In this document: positions 1 through 9,840 of the stretch, in pieces | How positions within the stretch are numbered: position 1 is the stretch's first letter | Layout of the letters: every line of letters begins with the position of its first letter | Source of the DNA: Acidobacteriota bacterium | GTDB taxonomy: Bacteria > Acidobacteriota > Terriglobia > UBA7540 | Direction of reading: 5' to 3' | Assembly (NCBI GenBank): GCA_021827245.1 | Contig: JAKAWN010000235.1 | Coordinates: forward strand, 1-10,344 | Length of the DNA stretch: 10,344 nt | The notes under the pieces: model-generated | Database searches by the model: none | The model's input: only the letters and a program-made list of their open reading frames with translations | What the model was told of the DNA's origin: nothing | Position numbers and translations under genes: made by a program

Positions 1-1353
<1,353 letters not shown>

Positions 1354-1398
1354 TCACCAAACGCCACCGTCATCGGCTACTGCCAAATGACTCCTGAC

Positions 1399-1716
1399 CT
1401 ACTTCTTCCCACTCGCGCCGGCTGCCTTAGCTTCAAGGATTCCCAGCACTTCTTCCTCGCGCAGGATCAGATACTCCTGGTCTTCCATCTTGATTTCAGC
1501 GCCGGAATATTTCCCGAAGAGGATCAGGTCGCCCGCCTTCACATCCAAGGCAATCACTTTTCCGTCTTCGGTTTTCTTGCCATGCCCAACGGCGATGACT
1601 TTGCCTTCTTGTGGTTTCTCCCTGGCTGTGTCGGGAATGATGATTCCGCCCTTCACGGCTTCCTTTTCTTCAACCCGCTTGATCAGGATTCGATCATGCA
1701 GAGGCCTGAAATTCAT
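1399..1716 (-). CDS. groES: Co-chaperonin GroES (10 kDa, Hsp10)
   Basis: Heptameric lid of the GroEL folding chamber. The product has 105 residues, close to the usual 95-105. Diagnostic stretches are the N-terminal [12 protein letters not shown], the mobile-loop region [21 protein letters not shown] (residues about 17-37, containing the GGIIIP anchor that contacts GroEL), GKVIAVGHG, and the terminal beta strand with [12 protein letters not shown]. The reading frame extends 7 codons further upstream. The ATG at 1716 is preferred because AAAGGAG lies 7 nt ahead of it and the family starts here. The C-terminus has a short Ala/Gly/Lys tail (KAAGASGKK). It is the first gene of the groES-groEL operon. 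Confidence 0.98.
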
Positions 1717-1723
1717 CTTGAGT

Positions 1724-1730
1724 CTCCTTT
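1724..1730 (-). promoter_or_regulatory. Shine-Dalgarno deciding the groES start
   Basis: AAAGGAG on the minus strand lies 7 nt before ATG 1716. It selects this start over the in-frame upstream codon near 1737, which would place the ribosome binding site inside the gene. Confidence 0.8.
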
Positions 1731-1778
1731 CGCGCATTAGTTAGTTAGGGAATGTTGGCTTGGATGAGCCCCTCGCAA

Positions 1779-2540: not shown

Positions 2541-2655
2541 AACTGGTCGTCCCGGCAAACGCGAGCCTCCTTGCGATTCCCACTTTGATTTCACCCGTCG
2601 TCGGGCGATCTTCGCCGTCCTTGTGACAGGGCTCCCCGTGCCCGCGCCAGCCGCC

Positions 2656-3021
2656 CTAAAGTGATTCGCTTCCCGGCGTTCGATTGGTAATAGAAGGGAT
2701 GGAGAGGACCGGCTGACTCCTTAGAGTCTCAAGCGAGATCAGAAATGCCAGCAGGCAAGCCACATCCAGAACGAGAAACACATTCCGGGAAAGTGCGACC
2801 GGCGCTATGGGATTAAACAGCAGGCTGATGGCAACGAACCCGGCTGCCCAAAGGTACTTCGGCCGGGCGACTGCCTCCGTGGCGACCATCAAGGCGCCCA
2901 CACAGACTACGATGTCCAGCAGGATTTTCACGCCCGGGGTGGCCACCCAGAATGCCGTTAACAGCAACACCCCAGCACAAACGAACTTCATTATTTTCGT
3001 AAACATGGGATTCGCAAACAT
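2656..3021 (-). CDS. Four-helix small membrane protein
   Basis: The product is 121 residues from ATG 3021, where GAGGTG lies 4 nt upstream. The frame is open for 29 codons further up, but that stretch is not hydrophobic and has no better ribosome binding site. Predicted membrane segments are at about 13-28, 31-48, 57-75 and 80-98. The third and fourth are linked by LFNPIAPVALSRNVFLVLD, a loop with the FNP and L-S-R residues found in a widespread family of small integral membrane proteins of unknown function (I recall similar DUF-type proteins but cannot confirm the family). The last 22 residues are polar and probably cytoplasmic. No enzymatic motif is visible. Confidence 0.7.
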   Translation of the reverse strand: MFANPMFTKIMKFVCAGVLLLTAFWVATPGVKILLDIVVCVGALMVATEAVARPKYLWAAGFVAISLLFNPIAPVALSRNVFLVLDVACLLAFLISLETLRSQPVLSIPSITNRTPGSESL

Positions 3022-3111
3022 CGTACACCTCATATCTTCCGGCAACCGAAGGATTGTCCTTTGCCGGATAAGGAAGAGGGCGGACTTGCCGCCCCCAGCG
3101 AACGACAAAGC

Positions 3112-3438
3112 CTATAGTCTGGCTGCTACGTGAGCAGCGATTTTGTGGAAGGTGGAGTTAGTGACCTCGTAGGTCTGAACTGCAGGAGTCCCTTCAAGAA
3201 CCTTCGCCAGAGCCTTCTGCACTTGGGGATAAGTGTCGCGGTTATAAGTTTCTGCGGTCTCTTTCCGGTCCCAGAGGCTGATCCCCACCGCTTCCGTCCC
3301 GCCGGCATCGACGAGGGCAATTTCGTCCAGGAATCCTTTGTGTTTTCGAAGCAACGGAATGACTTCGTCGTTGATCGTCCGCGTAAATTCCGCGACGCTG
3401 CCAGCCTTCAGATGCATGGAGACACTTCTTGCAAACAT
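3112..3438 (-). CDS. ABM-like dimeric alpha+beta barrel protein
   Basis: The product has 108 residues. It starts FARSVSMHLKAGSVAEFTR and continues with an I-P-L-L-R-K-H-K-G-F helix/turn and the strand EAVGISLWDRKETAETY. This is the usual order of the antibiotic biosynthesis monooxygenase/ferredoxin-like barrel fold: beta strand, helix with conserved aromatic, G-F turn, W-x-x-x-E, then Y. Members are small homodimers. Some are quinol or haem monooxygenases and many have no known substrate, so none is assigned here. The start is supported by GAGGAGG about 5 nt before ATG 3438. It is transcribed away from the HTH-only gene at 3628, and the 189-bp gap between them contains the control region described separately. 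Confidence 0.8.
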   Translation of the reverse strand: MFARSVSMHLKAGSVAEFTRTINDEVIPLLRKHKGFLDEIALVDAGGTEAVGISLWDRKETAETYNRDTYPQVQKALAKVLEGTPAVQTYEVTNSTFHKIAAHVAARL

Positions 3439-3479
3439 AGCAACCTCCTCGGTTGTTGTCTAAGAGGTGCGATTGCAGG

Positions 3480-3612
3480 TAACCCGACTTAGTTCAGGTT
3501 GTCTGGAGACTTAGTGGGAGGAATTGTCTCAATAGCCAGCATGAGCGAATTAACTTCATTTGTCAAGACAAATCGCGTGTTATCTGATTATTATTAACCT
3601 AAATAAGTTAAT
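3480..3612. promoter_or_regulatory. Control region 1, in front of HTH copy 1
   Basis: Elements shared with the region before HTH copy 2: TAACCCGACTTAGTTCAGGT (3480-3499; 18 of 20 bases identical to 4619-4638), TTGTCTC (3524-3530), the core TTAACTTCATTTGTCAAG (3550-3567), and AAGTTAATCTGAGG running into the ribosome binding site (3605-3618). Half-sites are ATTAAC at 3549 and 3593 and GTTAAT at 3607; the last two form perfect arms 8 bp apart. The core also contains TTTGTC-AA-GACAAA (3559-3572), a perfect inverted repeat. It probably contains promoter and operators for copy 1 and possibly for the divergent ABM-like gene. Confidence 0.6.
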
Positions 3613-3627
3613 CTGAGGAGGACTGCG

Positions 3628-3825
3628 GTGGATATTTCTTTAGTGATCAGGCATCGTCTCGACGAACCGGGCCTAGATCAACGAGATCTGGCAAGCGCCG
3701 CACAAGTTACAGAGTCCTACATTTCGCAATTGCTGGCTCGAAAAAATCGTCCTCTCCAGGAGCAGTCCGAACGTATTTCCGCAGCTCAACACAGTCCGTT
3801 GGCTGAGTCCAGGTGTGAGCGGTAG
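3628..3825 (+). CDS. HTH-only XRE-family protein (truncated paralogue, copy 1)
   Basis: The product has 65 residues and starts at GTG, with a strong GAGGAGG (3615-3621) 6 nt upstream. Residues 1-40 are clearly homologous to the N-terminus of the full-length protein at 4775-5755. Both share a D-(I/L)-x-x-(V/I)-I-R-x-R-L start and A-A-Q-V-T-E-S-Y-I-S-Q-L-L, the recognition-helix part of an XRE/Cro-like HTH. After about residue 43 similarity fades, and the body domain is missing. It ends in an unrelated polar tail. Two readings are possible: a decayed copy, or a working HTH micro-protein that competes with the full-length regulator for the same operators. The intact start, ribosome binding site and HTH favour expression. 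Its upstream region is also conserved with copy 2. Confidence 0.6.
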   Translation: MDISLVIRHRLDEPGLDQRDLASAAQVTESYISQLLARKNRPLQEQSERISAAQHSPLAESRCER

Positions 3826-3886
3826 ATGCTAGCCGAAGCACACGCGGAGGGCGATCGGAAACGTCGTCGGGGAGGATTCTCAGGCC

Positions 3887-4207
3887 TTAATAATCTCGCC
3901 GCCGTCGGAAGTTGTCTCTGTCGCCGCCGCCGGTACGCGATCGGGAGGAGTCCGTCCGCTGCGGGCGAGCTTCATTGACGGTCAAGGGGCGGCCCTCCAG
4001 GGACTGTCCATTCAACCCGGCAATTGCCCGCTGAATGTCTTCTCCATCGCCAAGTTCGACAAAGCCGAAACCTCGGGGGGTTCCGGTCATCTTGTCTCGC
4101 ACCACAACTGCGGAGGCTATTTGGAAGCCCGCGTTGGTCACAAATTCGCCGAGCGAGGCATCGGTGGCGCTATGCGGTAGATTGCCTACAAAAATTTTGG
4201 TCGCCAT
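3887..4207 (-). CDS. RRM-type RNA-binding protein
   Basis: The product has 106 residues. A single RNA recognition motif fills residues 3-80. RNP2 is KIFVGNLP (4-11) and RNP1 is RGFGFVEL (45-52), with the aromatic residues that stack on RNA bases present (F6, F47, F49). The last strand is PLTVNEARP. A short Arg/Gly/Ser-rich tail follows (about 83-106, ending RRRRDY), as in bacterial cold-shock or stress-associated RRM proteins. The open frame starts 6 codons earlier at a TTG. ATG 4207 is preferred because GGAGG (4219-4223) lies 11 nt ahead and the domain begins at once. It converges with HTH copy 1. A decayed relative lies at about 7577-7911. Confidence 0.92.
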   Translation of the reverse strand: MATKIFVGNLPHSATDASLGEFVTNAGFQIASAVVVRDKMTGTPRGFGFVELGDGEDIQRAIAGLNGQSLEGRPLTVNEARPQRTDSSRSRTGGGDRDNFRRRRDY

Positions 4208-4267
4208 ACTTCTCTGTTCCTCCAAGTTGGAGCCGTCTTGGGGAGACTTGCTCCGATATTTGCTATT

Positions 4268-4495
4268 TCAGGTTAAACTTACCCCTTCTTTACCATGCTC
4301 TATCTGGGGATGATGCTGCCCCAAATACTCCTTGATGTTGCGGTCTCCGATCAAGAGGTGAGGCTCCGCACGGGAATCTTCCGCTTGGACTGTCACCATG
4401 CATTCGCTTGCACTATGGGGCGCATTCGCGACGTGAAACGCATAAATGCGAGGACTGACCGCAATCTGAATTCTATCTACATACTGAATATACAT
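4268..4495 (-). CDS. Possible small hypothetical protein
   Basis: The product is 75 residues if it starts at ATG 4495, with AAGGG about 8 nt upstream. A GTG at 4552 would give 94 residues. The sequence alternates polar and hydrophobic residues (YVDRIQIAV, RIYAFHVANAP, ECMVTVQAE), which suggests beta strands, and ends in a charged tail. I do not recognise a family. Support for coding is the open frame, the plausible start and the protein-like pattern. It would sit 61 nt upstream of the RRM gene on the same strand and be transcribed away from HTH copy 2. Confidence 0.4.
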   Translation of the reverse strand: MYIQYVDRIQIAVSPRIYAFHVANAPHSASECMVTVQAEDSRAEPHLLIGDRNIKEYLGQHHPQIEHGKEGVSLT

Positions 4496-4618
4496 GCCGT
4501 GACCCTTAAGGCCTGCATGCGCAAACGTCGAAGGAAACATGTCACGCGACACTCGACTTAGAAGTCAACGCCGCGCGCACCAGCCCTGCCGTCGATAACG
4601 GCCTCTGAAGCAATGAGA

Positions 4619-4760
4619 TAACCAGACTCAGTTCAGGTCGCCAAGTGGTCGGATGAGAGAGGTTTGTCTCGTTATCGAGGGTAAGTTAATTCACTTTACC
4701 TGTCAAGAATAATATGGCATGATGTCAAAAGTAGGATTGTAATAAACTTAACAAGTTAAC
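4619..4760. promoter_or_regulatory. Control region 2, in front of the HTH-sigma operon
   Basis: It has the same order of elements as control region 1: TAACCAGACTCAGTTCAGGT (4619-4638), TTGTCTC (4664-4670), the core TTCACTTTACCTGTCAAG (4690-4707) and AAGTTAACTGAGGA (4753-4766). Spacing is almost identical to region 1: box to TTGTCTC 45 versus 44, box to core 71 versus 70. GTTAAT occurs at 4685. TTAAC-AA-GTTAA (4748-4759) is a perfect inverted repeat immediately before the ribosome binding site, where a bound repressor would block transcription or translation. Half-site geometry suggests autoregulation by the HTH protein. This is inferred. Confidence 0.6.
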
Positions 4761-4774
4761 TGAGGACAATTTCT

Positions 4775-5755
4775 ATGGATTTGGCTGCGATCATCCGGCA
4801 GCGACTCGAGCAATTAGGACTTGAACAGAAGGACTTGGCGATCGCCGCCCAAGTCACGGAGTCTTATATCTCGCAATTACTTAGAAGGAAGAAAGCGCCT
4901 CCCGAGCCGGCGCGGACTGATATCTACGGAAAGATCGAAGATTTCTTGAAATTCCGACGCGGAGAAATTGTCAAGTTGGTACAGTTGCAGCGCCAGGAAG
5001 AGTTGAAGCGGAAGCTGGTGGATCCACCGCCACCTTTGTTCAAAGAAGTTCGGGAACTGGTTCTCCGCAAGTGCAAACCAGGCAAACAGAAACAAGTGAG
5101 AGTGATTTTTGAACGACAGCCCTTCGGTGAGCTTGAATTCCTGGTCACACAAAAACTCCTGGACGTGGTCAAAGGCATCGCCATGCAAGAACTCGAAAGG
5201 GAGGATTGGCTCCGCTTAGTGGGTAGTCTCAACGGTCGAAGCTACGAAGAGACGCGAGTCACGATTCTGGAATTTCTGGATATAGACGTGCTCAATGTCT
5301 CACTTGAGCATTGCACCTCTTTTCTGGATCCCTTGATTGAGTCCTGGGACATTGACCTTGCCAACTTCGACCTTGAAATTACTCTGAACCGGAGGGTAGT
5401 CCCTGGACACATTAAGCGGTTTGGGTTCGTTGAACAGTCTGGAAGTCTGGGCGAAGATGACCCGGGGCTAAAACAATTCCTTCAAGATATTTCTTTCAGT
5501 AAAGGGGCCACCGAAGAAGAAATTGAGTACTTACGGGCTCTAAGACTTAACGGAAGACATCCCACTCCGCTCTTCTACTACCGTGAATTGCAAAACCTCC
5601 GCGATCCGTTGCATTTTCGAGATGTGGGAGAGCGGGGACCAGGCGGCCGGGAGGCCACGACCTTGCCGGAAAACGCTACCCGGTCCGAACCTCCGGTCGT
5701 GTCGCGGCGCGGACCATTTGATAAGGCATCCGGGACTTCATCTAGTGAGTCGTAA
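4775..5755 (+). CDS. XRE-family HTH regulator with large C-terminal body (copy 2, intact)
   Basis: The product has 326 residues. Residues about 5-40 form a Cro/C1-type HTH (LEQKDLAIAAQVTESYISQL). A linker of charged helices follows (45-82, QEELKRKL). Residues about 85-282 form a mostly helical domain of unknown fold, with landmarks ERQPFGELE (113-121), EDWLRLV (143-149), LDPLIESWDIDL (184-195) and YYRELQNLRDPLHFR (268-282). Residues 283-326 are a low-complexity Gly/Pro/Ser/Arg tail that is absent from paralogue copy 3. The start is fixed by GAGGA 8-9 nt upstream and by matching copy 1. It lies 17 nt before the RpoD-like gene, so the two are probably co-transcribed. No catalytic motif is visible. 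The most economical role is a DNA-binding regulator of its own operon. Confidence 0.82.
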   Translation: MDLAAIIRQRLEQLGLEQKDLAIAAQVTESYISQLLRRKKAPPEPARTDIYGKIEDFLKFRRGEIVKLVQLQRQEELKRKLVDPPPPLFKEVRELVLRKCKPGKQKQVRVIFERQPFGELEFLVTQKLLDVVKGIAMQELEREDWLRLVGSLNGRSYEETRVTILEFLDIDVLNVSLEHCTSFLDPLIESWDIDLANFDLEITLNRRVVPGHIKRFGFVEQSGSLGEDDPGLKQFLQDISFSKGATEEEIEYLRALRLNGRHPTPLFYYRELQNLRDPLHFRDVGERGPGGREATTLPENATRSEPPVVSRRGPFDKASGTSSSES

Positions 5756-5772
5756 AAAAGCTTAACAGACGG

Positions 5773-7503
5773 ATGGTAGATTCGACCCGTTCGTCACGGG
5801 AGGAACTTCTGCGGCTTATGCTTCAGCGACAGCAAGCACGGCGGCGCAGCGTCATTACCTCAGGTAAGGAATGCGATGGCTTTCTACCGGACGAGATGAG
5901 CACAGGTATGCAAGCCGGCACGATGTTCTCCGCCTTCGAGGGTGATGACATCCACATCTGCGAAGATCCTCCCGGGGCGATGCCTGCAAGGGGCGCACTC
6001 AGGATTGCGGAACGCGCAGAAAGCAGGATGGGCACAGATGCCGTCCCGGGCGAAGACGGGGAAACGGAACTTCGTGAGTTGCCGGGAGTTCTGGACAGCA
6101 CTGATGATCTGATCCGGCAATATCTTCGCGAAATGGGAAGTGTGCCATTGCTCAACCGTGAAGAGGAGGTGTCAATTGCCAAGCGCATCGAACATGGTCA
6201 AGCGCTGGTGCTCAAGACTGCCTTCCGTTCTCCGGTTATCATCAAAGAACTGATTGCCGTAGGAGGACAGTTGCGCCAGGGGGCGCGTTCGATTAAGGAT
6301 GTTGTCCATTTCGATGAAGGAGAGTTGACTACGGAAGAACGCGCAATGAAGGTGCACCAGACGCTCCAGATTATCTCCGACATTAAGTGGCTCCACGGTG
6401 CGGCACTTCACCAAGCGACGCGGCTAACAAACACTCCAAAAACAAAGCGACGTGCTTATCTGCTGGCGTGGCGGCAGTTAGCGCGGACCCGGATTAAGAT
6501 GTCTCGATTGGCTCGCTCGATAGGGCTGCGCGCGCATGAAAAAAGCCGCCTGATTGACAGGTTAAAGAACGAAGTGGAGCGAATACATTCTGGCAAGCGG
6601 GCGGAGGCTCGGTTTGGAGGGGATGGCGGCGTCACTCCTGTGAAGGCGTCCATGTTGTGCAACGGGCGAGGTTTGCGCCACTTGCGGCTAAGGGTAATGG
6701 AGGAATCGAGCGAGATTCAACTCCAGGATCTGGAACGTTCGCTCGCTTTAATCCTCTGCGGCGAGGGCGAGTCCCAGCGGGCGAAGAAGGAGTTGACCAA
6801 GTCAAACCTTCGTCTCGTTGTGTCTATCGCCAGGAAGTACACGAACCGGGGGCTGGACTTTCTCGACTTGATCCAGGAAGGTAATATTGGCCTGATGAGG
6901 GCCACAGACAAATTCGACTGGCGCCGCGGCTATAAGTTTTCTACCTATGCCACGTGGTGGATTCGCCAGGCGATTTCACGGGCTGTTGCCGATAAGGGAC
7001 GCACCATCCGAGTGCCGGCGCACATGTCCGCCGCCATCATTAAACAGAATCGAACCAGCCAACAGCTGGTGCAGGAACTAGGCCGCGAACCGACCGACGA
7101 GGAAATCGCCCGGCGCTTGTCGGTCACCGTCGAAAAGGTGCGAAGCACGGAGAGGGCTTCTTACCATGCAGTCTCTCTGGAGACGCCCATCGGGAATGAC
7201 GGGGATTCAGCTTTAGGCGGCATCATCGAGGATAAGGCTATTGTTTCGCAGTCGGAAGCAGCCATCAAGCTCAACCTGAAGGAACGGATGGCTGACATAC
7301 TGAAGACGCTTACGACCCGAGAGGAAGCTGTTATCCGCATGCGCTTCGGCCTCAGCGATGGTACCGAGCGCACGCTGGCGGAAGTCGGCCTAAATTTTGC
7401 CGTTTCCAGCGAGCGGATCCGCCAGATTGAAACCAGGGCGCTGCGAAAACTCCGCCAACAATTGCGATCAGGAGAGTTCCGGCTCTTTATACAAAACTCT
7501 TAG
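5773..7503 (+). CDS. rpoD: RpoD-like sigma-70 factor (probable paralogue)
   Basis: The product is a 576-residue, group 1/2-type sigma factor that directs RNA polymerase to promoters. Region 1.2 is at about 108-142 (DDLIRQYLREMGSVPLLNRE). A non-conserved region spans about 143-335. Region 2 is at 340-417: NLRLVVSIARKYTNRGLDFL, DLIQEGNIGLM, then the -10 melting/recognition stretch YKFSTYATWWIRQAI with W395, W396 and Q399. Region 3 is at about 418-490 (SLETPIG, GGIIEDK). Region 4 is at about 504-565, with the -35 HTH near 534-560. Region 1.1 is not recognisable; the first 100 residues are unlike it. Two positions differ from E. coli RpoD: S402 for T440, and S546 for R584 in the -35 helix. These suggest an alternative RpoD paralogue with altered promoter choice. 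The ribosome binding site is weak (ACGG directly before the ATG), which fits translational coupling to the HTH gene just upstream. Confidence 0.95.
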   Translation: MVDSTRSSREELLRLMLQRQQARRRSVITSGKECDGFLPDEMSTGMQAGTMFSAFEGDDIHICEDPPGAMPARGALRIAERAESRMGTDAVPGEDGETELRELPGVLDSTDDLIRQYLREMGSVPLLNREEEVSIAKRIEHGQALVLKTAFRSPVIIKELIAVGGQLRQGARSIKDVVHFDEGELTTEERAMKVHQTLQIISDIKWLHGAALHQATRLTNTPKTKRRAYLLAWRQLARTRIKMSRLARSIGLRAHEKSRLIDRLKNEVERIHSGKRAEARFGGDGGVTPVKASMLCNGRGLRHLRLRVMEESSEIQLQDLERSLALILCGEGESQRAKKELTKSNLRLVVSIARKYTNRGLDFLDLIQEGNIGLMRATDKFDWRRGYKFSTYATWWIRQAISRAVADKGRTIRVPAHMSAAIIKQNRTSQQLVQELGREPTDEEIARRLSVTVEKVRSTERASYHAVSLETPIGNDGDSALGGIIEDKAIVSQSEAAIKLNLKERMADILKTLTTREEAVIRMRFGLSDGTERTLAEVGLNFAVSSERIRQIETRALRKLRQQLRSGEFRLFIQNS

Positions 7504-7576
7504 CAAAATAGCCGGAAGGCCGTACCTGCTCTCCATATCAGACGCGCATCCAAATAATCAAGTTTCAATCAAGGGA

Positions 7577-7911
7577 AATACAGAAAATCTCTTTGGTCGC
7601 AGATGAGCCCCAAATAACGGACACCGATTTGACCCTGTTCTTCAAAAAGGTTCGGACTGGTCACCCGGACTCACTTAGCGACAAATCCGAAGACCGGTTG
7701 AGCCCGTTATTCTGCTTTCGTCGAAATACCTAATGATGGAGAAGCATGCAAGGCAGTTACCGGCTTGGGTAGAAAAGACTTCAGTGGCTGCAATCTTAAG
7801 GTGAACGAAGCGCGCTCAGGGCGCGAGCGGGCCTCCGCGCAGCGAGGGCGGGGAGCGGCGCGACCCTGCAGGGTTTCATTTGAGGATTACCGCGAAGCCG
7901 TACGCATGTAA
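7577..7911 (+). pseudogene. Decayed RRM-type RNA-binding protein gene
   Basis: An RRM can be followed across three frames. Frame 2 gives ENLF up to about 7594. After one extra base, frame 3 gives V-A-D-E-P-Q-I-T-D-T-D-L-T-L-F-F-K-K (7596-7649). After another extra base near 7650, frame 1 gives F-G-L-V-T-R-T-H-L-A-T-N-P-K-T-G, a TGA at 7699-7701, then ARYSAFVEIPND, EACKAVTGLG and CNLKVNEAR, and an Arg/Gly-rich tail to TAA 7909-7911. This is the exact RRM order: beta1, helix 1, beta2, RNP1 (YSAFVEI), helix 2, beta4. The last strand LKVNEAR matches LTVNEAR of the intact RRM protein at 3887-4207. The GC-rich stretch at 7805-7875 is its RGG-like tail, not a structured RNA. The 5' limit is uncertain. 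Confidence 0.75.
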
Positions 7912-7984
7912 CTTAAACCCCGATGGTATTCATTTAAAGCGCTCAAGATATTACCCGATCAGCACAGATTTGGAAGGAGACCTT

Positions 7985-8182
7985 ATGGCCACTACGTACC
8001 AGAAACGCCAGAAAGAAATGAAGAGACTCGAAAAGCAGCGCCAGAAAGCCGAACGGCGCGCACAGAGAAAGCTTGCCCACCGTGAACAAAAAGAATCTCC
8101 CGCCGAGAATGCAATTCCTGTTGGGGATGAAGTCGTAATAGAAATCGGAACCATACGCCCCGAACCCTCGCGTGAAAACTGA
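7985..8182 (+). CDS. Small, highly basic Lys/Arg/Gln-rich protein
   Basis: The product has 65 residues. Residues 5-38 are an uninterrupted charged helix (QKRQKEMKRLEKQRQKAERR then AQRKLAHREQK), probably a coiled coil or nucleic-acid-binding helix. It ends with an acidic/hydrophobic tail (VGDEVVIEIGTI). I associate small proteins of this composition with Acidobacteriota but cannot name a family. The open frame runs further up to 7880. ATG 7985 is preferred because GGAAGGAGA (about 7972-7980) lies just ahead and the upstream part overlaps the RRM remnant. It is the first intact gene after the sigma operon. Confidence 0.7.
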   Translation: MATTYQKRQKEMKRLEKQRQKAERRAQRKLAHREQKESPAENAIPVGDEVVIEIGTIRPEPSREN

Positions 8183-8267
8183 TCCCACGGGTTCGGTGCT
8201 AGTACTACTCACAGGAGGTGCCGCTTGACCTCACTCACTTACCGAGCATTGGCATCGTGACGGCAGC

Positions 8268-8474
8268 CTAAGTTATTGCTTTCTTGCGACGGAGGGGGCG
8301 GAGCTTAGGCGGCGGGGCTTCGTCAGTCAACTCGACCGTCATGAGCTGGGTGACAAATTTCTTTGGTCCGTGAAGGTGGAAGTCGATAGAGGTCCTTTCC
8401 TCATCCGATTGGGTTACCATTCCGAGGCCGTACTGGACGTGCTTGATGAATTGTCCTTGCGGGAGTCTTTGCAT
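8268..8474 (-). CDS. Small 'GQFIKHVQYGLG' protein of unknown function
   Basis: The product is 68 residues from ATG 8474, with AAGGAAGG about 5 nt upstream. An ATG at 8528 would give 86 residues, but its ribosome binding site is poorer and the family-like sequence begins near GQFIKHVQYGLGMV. The core G-x-F-x-K-H-x-x-Y-G-x-G-x-V, then S-D-E-E-R-T-S-I-D-F and K-K-F-V-T, looks like a small SH3-like beta barrel, as in other short proteins with a 'V-x-H-x-x-Y-G-x-G-x-V' start. A basic tail, LRPLRRKKAIT, follows. The substrate or partner is unknown. It is transcribed toward the basic protein gene at 7985. Confidence 0.65.
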   Translation of the reverse strand: MQRLPQGQFIKHVQYGLGMVTQSDEERTSIDFHLHGPKKFVTQLMTVELTDEAPPPKLRPLRRKKAIT

Positions 8475-8757
8475 ATGAGCCTTCCTTTGCTGTCGGAAAT
8501 TTGGATCGCCGGTCACAGGAGTCGCCATCCGATCCCTGTGGGCACTGACAGATTGGCGGTTCGGCGTAACGGCCCCACCCTATACTGCCGCTGCTAGGGG
8601 CTGTGTCCTACACAGATTCAAAGCGCTCTCAACCATACATGCCAGCACATGAGCGTGTTCATCGGTCATGATGTGAGGCACGGCGAAATCGAAGGCGTCA
8701 CGTCTATTGCGGGTTTCTCTTCGCTGAATCAAGGATCGCAATCCATAACGTAACGCG
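8475..8757. other. Intergenic stretch without a supported gene
   Basis: This lies between the small minus-strand gene and control region 3. An open minus-strand frame (about 8580-8732) could encode roughly 50 residues, but it has only a TTG start and no ribosome binding site, so I do not call it. The 20-nt box and TTGTCTC element present in control regions 1 and 2 are not found here at the expected distance. Confidence 0.4.
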
Positions 8758-8821
8758 ATTAACTAAATATGTCAAGTAAAACCTTATCCACTCCTCTATA
8801 AGTTAATCTGACTCAGTTAAT
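8758..8821. promoter_or_regulatory. Control region 3 (degenerate), in front of HTH copy 3
   Basis: The core TTAACTAAATATGTCAAG (8759-8776) aligns base for base with the cores of regions 1 and 2. AAGTTAATCTGA (8800-8811) matches the copy 1 downstream element. GTTAAT/ATTAAC half-sites occur at 8758, 8802 and 8816. The ribosome binding site is gone: CTGACTC replaces CTGAGGA. The region was probably inherited with the gene before the HTH-coding part was lost. Confidence 0.5.
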
Positions 8822-8839
8822 AATTGCACAATCCGCGGT

Positions 8840-9585
8840 TTGTCCCCGGCGCCTGCTCGGATGGGTATTTACGACATGATGTTAAAGCCCTTGAAGTTCC
8901 CAGACAGCGAACTGGCGAAGCCGACAGAGATGCAGCACCAGGAAGAGCTGAAAAGAAAATTGGCGGACCCGCACGCGCTGTTGTTTAAAGGGGTCCACGA
9001 ATTGGTGCGCCTCAAATGTAAGCCCGAAAAGCAGGCGCAAGTGCAGGCGATTCTTGAAAGGCAGCCCTTCGGCGAAGTCGAACGCCTCATTACCCAGAAG
9101 CTCTTCGACGTGGTTAGGCAAGTTGCCAGAGAAGAACCGGAAAATGAAGACTGGCTCCGGCTGATGGCCAGAGTGCGCAACCGGAGGTACGAAGACATGC
9201 GGGTTTCCATTCTCGAATTCCTGGATGCGCTCGTATCGACGTATCGATTGAAAACCGTGCCTCCTTTTTGGATCCGTTGATCGAATCCTGGAACACTGGT
9301 CTGGCGACTTTTCGCGTGGAAATCGCCTTAAATTTGAGTCTGGCCGCGGGTCACACAAAAAGGTTTGAGTTTATTAAGATGGAACCGGAACCAGCTTTTG
9401 ATGAAGATCCGGGACTCAAAGAATTTCTTTGCGACTCTTCCCTTAGCGGCGATGCGACCGAAGAAAAAGTCGAATTCCTGAAGAGACCTTGATTCAGCGG
9501 GAAACGGCCTACCGCCCTCTATTATTACCGGGAACTACAAAGTCTTAGAGACCCTCTCCATATTCGCGCTCCACGAACAGGGTAG
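8840..9585 (+). pseudogene. Decayed paralogue of the HTH regulator lacking its HTH (copy 3)
   Basis: The product would align with residues about 45-282 of copy 2. Shared landmarks are Q-E-E-L-K-R-K-L, ERQPFGEVE, ENEDWLRLMA, LDPLIESW and YYYRELQSLRDPLHIR. Three lesions are visible. First, the first 45 codons (the whole HTH) and the ribosome binding site are missing; the alignment begins at P-A-R with no later gap before QEELK. Second, one base is missing between 9229 and 9245, where the copy 2 interval has 18 nt and this one has 17, shifting the frame after LEFLD. Third, TGA at 9490-9492 stands where copy 2 has an arginine codon, after which the same frame continues aligned to TAG 9583-9585. 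The first part could still yield a 146-residue fragment (to 9280). No functional start is evident. Confidence 0.8.
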
Positions 9586-9840
9586 CCTTGTCCCTGTTTA
9601 GGTCCGCGCCAGTGGATTGCTTCGGGGCAAGTTCCCCGTGCCCTTCACACCACAACCCTTCGTGCACAGGCGCATACTCCGCCATGGGCTTCCGCTTAGC
9701 CGCCCGATTCGCCACCAAGGCTCGTGTCTGGCAGATCTTACGCTCTAAGAAGATCCATGACTAACGGTTTGAAAGTGTCGGACATGTTGTGTGGGGACCG
9801 GACGTTCGCTGTGTGTAGTCAAATGTATTTTGCGAAAAAT
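9586..9840. other. Intergenic stretch between HTH copy 3 and the transposase
   Basis: I see no gene with a convincing start here. One 26-codon frame from ATG at about 9683 is too short and unsupported. The stretch is of mixed composition with no strong repeat or terminator hairpin. Confidence 0.4.

Follow-up and report, generated by a model that had tools for sequence, protein, structure and literature searches.

Among described systems, the regulators discussed here are best compared with DdrO of Deinococcus, HrcA/CIRCE and the XRE antitoxins of the HigA/HipB type. The CIRCE site reads TTAGCACTC-N9-GAGTGCTAA, and the HAIR site of HspR reads CTTGAGT-N7-ACTCAAG. DdrO is a substrate of IrrE/PprI; the cut falls between Leu106 and Arg107, within the loop joining helices 7 and 8 (PMC8072749). 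Its operator, the RDRM, is a 17-bp palindrome (PMC5552922); symmetric, i.e. palindromic, sites are usual for XRE dimers (PMC12565409). Here we describe a family of XRE-type regulators, starting from a contig of an Acidobacteriota bacterium (JAKAWN010000235.1, assembly GCA_021827245.1) in which three stretches, called copies 1 to 3, resemble one such protein. The whole analysed stretch of 10,344 nucleotides is called the window, and all coordinates refer to it unless a locus is named; loci are coded L, genomes G and the proteins of relatives P.

We think it very probable that an A-type repressor gene has been interrupted in the window by a B-type segment, and that the family is an autoregulated XRE-type repressor of an accessory stress island. 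The A-type gene, which stands next to an accessory groESL and is oriented divergently from an ABM-like gene, would have been interrupted at codons 40-42 by a 5.1-kb segment that brought in a sigma factor, small genes and, as a second repressor, one of the B type. Copies 1 and 3, whose split is seen by comparison, would be the dead ends of the A-type gene, and copy 2, judging from its conservation, would be the working protein. A dimer of the family protein may bind TTAAY-N8-RTTAA sites in its own promoter and before nearby stress genes, in many cases across the -10 element, and would repress these genes; a weak similarity suggests that the C-terminal 50 residues probably form the dimer, as in DdrO, and the middle ~150 residues are a candidate sensor. 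An odd trio of open reading frames is thereby reduced to a single event, for which five genomes show the site uninterrupted, and a family of at least 7,999 proteins obtains a functional hypothesis with a concrete 18-bp operator and a list of targets. If this is true, accessory chaperonin islands of soil Acidobacteriota would own a switch that is separate from HrcA/CIRCE.

Like DdrO, the family proteins have an N-terminal XRE helix-turn-helix (HTH), and a palindrome (18 bp here, 17 bp in DdrO) is found at their own and at stress-gene promoters. They differ from DdrO in being twice as long, with ~150 extra residues between the HTH and the C-terminal part, in their operator, in their targets, which are accessory chaperones and not DNA repair genes, and in having no link to M78 proteases. 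With HrcA/CIRCE they share a palindrome before groESL and a presumed negative control, whereas the palindrome and the protein family are different. The HigA/HipB-type antitoxins have the same HTH fold, and HigA chains are among the best structural matches (residues 1-99), but the family protein has a long body.

The interrupted A-type gene

The features that carry the argument are the following, as we read them:

3628..3746 (+), copy 1, codons 1-40 at the 5' end of the A-type repressor gene that is interrupted; blastn matches end at 3746 in five related genomes
3628..3825 (+), open frame of copy 1, 65 codons, continuing to 3825 through insert DNA
3747..8843, inserted segment of 5.1 kb (the B block and its ends), not present at the same locus in L045/L091, L049, L071, L080 and L002
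4775..5755 (+), copy 2, intact B-type repressor of 326 amino acids
8844..9567 (+), copy 3, codons 42-282 of that A-type gene and so its 3' part, with a frameshift at ~9232-9235 and a TGA at 9490-9492
9568..9837, DNA flanking the A locus on the 3' side, with homology next to the uninterrupted gene in one genome only, G347

The stretches homologous to one protein are 3628-3825, 4775-5755 and 8846-9567. The window was compared by blastn with eight related loci from six genomes, two of which (L079 and L081) are B-type loci without an A site. In G347 (L045 and L091), window 2635-3746 corresponds to L045 498-1619 with 81.6% identity, and window 8846-9837 to L045 1627-2645 with 80.3% identity, i.e. 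the two segments are adjacent in L045. This homology spans the ABM-like gene leftward and extends 270 bp beyond the 3' end of the gene rightward. The left homology ends at the same position, 3746, in G362 (L049), G403 (L071), G373 (L080) and G002 (L002), and the right homology begins at 8844-8866 across the related genomes; in L049, L071, L080 and L002 it stops at the end of the gene or 11 bp beyond. Counted along the gene, the break is at nt 119 and the homology resumes at nt 125 (codons 40-42; nt 127 in L045), and five to seven target bases were apparently lost at the insertion site. The predicted helices of the structure model lie at residues 3-14, 18-25, 29-37 and 50-58, which together with a break at codons 40-42 puts the interruption between helices 3 and 4, inside the HTH.

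G373 has an uninterrupted GroESL - ABM - repressor locus (L080) and, on another contig (L079), the order RRM - o4268m - repressor - sigma - o7880p - o8268m, which is the same as in the insert except for one extra RRM gene. In the protein tree of residues 43-165, copy 3 joins three ABM-linked genes in a clade with a support of 0.97, and another clade unites copy 2 with P0003, P0013, P0014, P0017 and P0018. The HTH DNA of copy 1 is closest to L049, L009, L045 and L008; copies 1 and 3 are both closest to ABM-linked genes. Judged from the sequence comparisons, a single gene has its 5' part in copy 1 and its 3' part in copy 3, and there are two repressor genes in all, not three.

An earlier note on this DNA, made from its letters alone, had described three paralogues, two of them complementary halves split at the domain boundary. 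The three homologous stretches stand, and copy 2 has its HTH and its body intact as described, but the five related genomes show copies 1 and 3 joined as one gene, neither absent nor randomly truncated. The halves are complementary in a literal sense, as two ends of one gene, and not in the way the note proposed; the break, as said, is within the HTH and not at its boundary. Copy 1, said to keep the HTH, has its start, but the HTH is incomplete and the last ~25 residues have no significant family homology. Copy 3, said to keep only the body, does begin with family sequence at about residue 42-43, but it is not an open gene.

The left junction is also found elsewhere. P0122 (79 residues) matches copy 1 over residues 1-50 with 78% identity and then the end of the insert in another frame with 69% identity, across two window stops; the left junction therefore exists in a second sequence, and the tail of copy 1 is not conserved as a protein. 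P0122 and the copy-2 relative P0003 probably lie on one contig of another assembly, both listing a longest contig of 3674 bases. That the junctions are chimeras of the metagenome assembly is very improbable, given this recurrence and the near-equal identity of both halves to G347 (81.6 and 80.3%), although the right junction is known from the window only.

Alternatively, two full-length A-type duplicates could have flanked the B block, and independent losses could have removed the body from one and the HTH from the other. Decay is frequent among family genes and strikes them at many positions, copies 1 and 3 are unequal in their synonymous distance to L045, and a stretch like a family promoter precedes copy 3. 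However, both breaks would have to meet within 5 to 7 nt in a gene of ~850 nt, and one G347 locus is flanked on its two sides by what lies left of copy 1 and right of copy 3 in the window. Moreover, a similar promoter region is seen by eye at the equivalent position of the G373 B block (L079), and we read the promoter region upstream of copy 3 as belonging to the insert and not to the interrupted gene; in other words, family-type DNA does precede all three copies, as had been noticed earlier, but that of copy 3 came with the insert in our reading. Two independent losses thus seem improbable to us, and we proceed with a single interrupted gene.

The inserted segment

Besides copy 2, the inserted segment contains:

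3887..4225 (-), RRM RNA-binding protein (PF00076)
4268..4552 (-), o4268m, small conserved island protein, no Pfam match
5773..7503 (+), RpoD-like sigma-70 factor, with Pfam Sigma70 r1.2, r2, r3 and r4
7880..8182 (+), o7880p, small basic protein, no Pfam match above the cut-off
8268..8528 (-), o8268m, small conserved protein, no Pfam match
8745..8820, family-type promoter region at the right end of the insert, with operators at 8745-8762 and 8803-8820

An interrupted gene and a neutral pseudogene are the ordinary part of the case. The less ordinary part is that the insert brings in a paralogue of the very gene that it breaks, and that the family shows a well-defined putative operator with a limited set of chaperone targets. 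The sigma factor gene starts 17 nt after the stop of copy 2, and it is possible that the sigma factor is the second arm of the switch. An RpoD-like sigma factor is also found near a family gene in G373 (L079) and G418 (L081). Membership of the sigma factor in a toxin-antitoxin or defence system was rejected, the MzaA models matching below the cut-off or over the general sigma region. In L079 of G373 (positions 1-400 of that locus), o8268m is followed by a family-type promoter, an ATG, ~12 codons that resemble the N-terminus of the family and then a stop (by eye), which is perhaps the remnant of a third copy.

Fate of the two gene parts

The conservation of the three copies was compared by counting changes at strongly conserved positions, which for copy 3 are those kept in at least 95% of the family over residues 60-282. 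Copy 2 has changed 1 of 76 such positions, copy 1 has changed 1 of 16 and copy 3 has changed 14 of 54; the highest count among the 144 family members over residues 60-282 is 7. The values for the branch leading to copy 3, derived from three pairwise distances with L045 and L049, are 0.117 for nonsynonymous (dN) and 0.107 for synonymous (dS) change, a ratio of 1.1, as compared to 0.15 for each of the intact L045 and L049 branches. A ratio of ~1.1 indicates neutral decay. Copy 3 is out of frame after ~9232-9235 and meets a TGA at 9490-9492. Random decay, which the earlier note had allowed for, is thus supported for copy 3 after the split, and the dN/dS check that it suggested gives a neutral answer there, while copy 1 offers only 40 codons.

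Copy 1 begins with a GTG preceded by AGGAGG, in agreement with the strong ribosome binding site reported before. Beyond 3746 no significant family homology was found in its last ~25 residues: in local alignments of 3747-3890 with six family genes, 60 to 369 of 500 shuffles scored as well (500 of 500 for copy 3), and we read these residues as the end of the insert. The open reading frame has only the predicted HTH helices 1-3, with no helices past the third and no body. Its median proportion of nonsynonymous differences (pN) to 47 intact HTHs is 0.172, within the intact range of 0.126-0.313, and the positions kept in these 40 codons fit both selection and recent loss.

The suggestion that the 65-residue product of copy 1 works as an antagonist and competes for the operators can draw on the AGGAGG before its start, on the intact operator at 3594-3611, on the single change among 16 conserved positions and on the ordinary pN. 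It is nevertheless unlikely, and we give it hardly any weight: the helices beyond the third and the entire body are missing, the tail is in another frame in P0122, and 12 of 14 aligned short relatives leave the family sequence at varied points, around residues 38-62, as frameshift debris would (by eye; 14 of 62 matches were aligned). Programmed frameshifting at the end of the HTH was rejected as well, because the breaks in the relatives are at many different positions. Two loci of G331, L061 and L062, carry HTH-only family fragments that end at residue 59, in stretches 97.7% identical over 300 bp; they are either a duplicated truncated copy or strain variants within a metagenome-assembled genome (MAG).

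The proposed operator and its targets

The operators of the window that belong to copies 1 and 2 are:

3532..3549, decayed upstream operator of the A gene, ATAGCCAGCATGAGCGAA (TTAACCAGCATGAGTTAA in L045)
3594..3611, intact operator of the A gene, TTAACCTAAATAAGTTAA
4672..4689, upstream operator of copy 2, one mismatch
4742..4759, downstream operator-like site of copy 2, two mismatches

Of 54 upstream regions (~220 bp) of relatives, 35 contain the 18-bp palindrome TTAAY-N8-RTTAA without a mismatch, at about -100 and about -34; the set comprises those of the 56 full-length relatives that have at least 200 bases upstream. A spacer of 8 gives 49 matches, as compared to 0-12 for the other spacers from 2 to 19. 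There are 55 exact sites in the 706 kb of loci, and 46 of them are within 200 bp upstream of a family start. In the window, six operator-like sites are found at up to one mismatch (mean of shuffled sequences 0.45; 0 of 200 shuffles reach 6), of which the one at 8868-8885 is inside copy 3 and the other five precede the three copies. Many sites overlie the -10 element of a TTGACA promoter (by eye), and some Hsp20 sites occur without TTGACA.

The stricter pattern TTAACYTATNNTGGTTAA was adopted for genome-wide searches because the loose one is not enriched there. At up to one mismatch, the strict pattern is present in 18 of 40 family-positive and in 0 of 40 family-negative genomes (Fisher p 6e-7); the former are genomes other than the 18 whose family loci had already been retrieved, and the latter were taken in listed order. 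The reversed pattern has 3 and 2 matches in the two sets. All 26 sites of the family-positive genomes are within 450 bp upstream of relatives of 12 query genes, which were drawn from the window and from earlier site-bearing loci and none from the 40 genomes. Fourteen sites are at the promoter of a family gene and 12 are elsewhere only, i.e. before genes for SKYRDFQF (4), Hsp20 (3), ABM-like (2), GroES/GroEL (2) and RRM (1) proteins. At up to two mismatches sites also precede unrelated genes. The protein with the motif SKYRDFQFGM is conserved and secreted-looking and is encoded near a family gene in 20 of 56 stretches (L020 7034-7756, L068, L002 and others), sometimes with an operator upstream.

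The palindrome might be bound by another factor with which the family is merely co-located. Binding by the family protein is our inference, and 22 of the 40 family-positive genomes are without a strong site; on the other hand, the strict site tracks the family (18 of 40 against 0 of 40), and it is found at the family's own promoter with the symmetry usual for XRE dimers. We consider another factor a rather poor candidate and the family protein itself the better one.

The reach of the operator was estimated from loci not selected for a site (22 family-positive genomes; 30 of 62 Hsp20 rows and 30 of 37 GroES rows), which we prefer to the counts of 8/10 for Hsp20 and 4/22 for GroES, biased as these are by many loci chosen for having a site. 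At up to two mismatches, the operator is found before 2 of 30 Hsp20 and 2 of 30 GroES genes. The regulon is therefore small and local, i.e. that of an accessory island and not the general heat-shock response, and with such a low rate a global heat-shock regulator was rejected. CIRCE (up to five mismatches) is found in 21 of the 30 GroES genes of family-positive genomes; the two GroES genes with the new operator (L258 and L261) are without it.

The putative repressor family and its domains

The family comprises at least 7,999 database proteins at an E value of 0.001, and among the matches listed (120) the identity to copy 2 is 66-93%. The named relatives are from Acidobacteria or Terriglobia MAGs (3 loci). 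A family match was found in 13 of 297 genomes sampled across the phylum and in 90 of 399 genomes of one class, with 1-5 matches each, some broken or cut by a contig end. Neither the family nor the operator is named in the literature examined; the motif may be among the 223 supplementary motifs of PMC12565409.

The family has the N-terminal HTH_3/HTH_31 domain of XRE/Cro-C1 regulators: PF13560 is matched by 133 of 144 members and PF01381 by 112 of 144 (E ≤0.01); the cut-off of the latter is 23 bits, and copy 2 scores 22.7 and copy 1 24.9. Above chance level, the Pfam and NCBIfam models match the HTH only, and the C-terminal 60 residues have no convincing match in either collection. As far as Pfam and NCBIfam go, the earlier statement that the body matches no known family is borne out; the C-terminal part of DdrO is the one weak lead. 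The NCBIfam model couple_hipB covers only residues 2-35 of copy 2 and is below its cut-off. Membership in a toxin-antitoxin or defence system was rejected on the ground that the repressor gives only short HTH matches, no search having been aimed at a toxin partner.

A structure model of residues 1-285 was built from an alignment of 144 sequences, with a predicted local distance difference test score (pLDDT) of 82.7; a shallow alignment gave 57. In it the HTH is followed by a middle part made of helices, by three short strands (188-217) and by helices at 230-242, 247-254 and 265-276. Foldseek gave no match at E ≤0.001 in the PDB or among viral models, with a query that included the HTH and barely probed the fold of the body.

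The family profile finds DdrO at E 0.04, its positions 229-265 being collinear with DdrO 76-112, a weak alignment that includes the L106/R107 cut. A tail-only search ranks DdrO first, with a weak E value of 0.28. In this alignment the conserved RFxGRRPT of the family would be the loop that corresponds to the cut loop of DdrO. Cleavage of the IrrE type is unsupported: the class sample of 399 genomes has PF06114 (M78) proteases in 40 of its 90 family-positive and in 141 of its 309 family-negative members (p 0.90). G522, a single contig of 6.69 Mb, has an intact family copy and no PF06114 match at E 1e-5. An HExxH scan of the neighbouring genes found five open reading frames, one of which (L075) is a plausible metalloprotease, not M78-like by eye. 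A more far-reaching proposal would be that of a novel stress repressor of Acidobacteriota, a DdrO-type protein with a ~150-residue sensor inserted between the HTH and a dimerisation and cleavage domain and with a non-M78 switch, in which the B block is a regulatory cassette of repressor, sigma factor and RNA-binding protein that captures a chaperone island by inserting into its repressor gene and replacing it; we regard it as unlikely.

Results that weigh against the proposed explanation

The explanation of an interrupted A-type gene in an autoregulated family has to be set against several results. A comparison of the two junction regions gave no direct or inverted repeat of at least 7 bases, no target duplication or terminal repeat was seen at the insert, and the scanned insert genes gave no match to a recombinase family. 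The synonymous distance of copy 1 to L045 (18.5/29 sites) exceeds that of copy 3 (49.8/157), a gap not expected of a single gene, for which recombination or chance is the only explanation that we can offer. In eight family-positive genomes the loose palindrome has 30 genome-wide matches as compared to 57 for the reversed control, and with TTAACYTATNNTGGTTAA at up to two mismatches there are 55 matches against 38 for the control in the 18 genomes whose family loci had been retrieved first. To these are added the 22 of 40 family-positive genomes without TTAACYTATNNTGGTTAA at up to one mismatch, and the low rates at unselected Hsp20 and GroES genes. As to the dimer, SATB1 chains, which are unrelated, outrank DdrO in the whole-profile search, in which the tail stretch by itself scores just 10 bits (E 4.1).

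Neighbouring genes

Two further features of the A locus are:

1..1737 (-), groES-groEL, judged accessory; groEL extends beyond the edge of the window
3115..3438 (-), ABM-like small protein, divergent partner of the A-type gene; its scores against the ydhR and ABM mono-oxygenase models do not reach the cut-offs

There is no CIRCE in the window at up to five mismatches and no family operator at up to four mismatches before its GroES gene. HAIR was found at one place only, with three mismatches, at 7764, between the sigma gene and o7880p. An ABM-like relative is present in 26 of the 56 stretches with a family gene, the window counted in. A gene for a membrane-protein-like product with a DUF6804 match above the cut-off (2659-3108, -) adjoins the ABM-like gene in several A loci. 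At the other end of the window, the start of an IS1595-type transposase (zinc ribbon PF12760; 9888-10343, +) lies just past the end of the A-locus homology at 9837.

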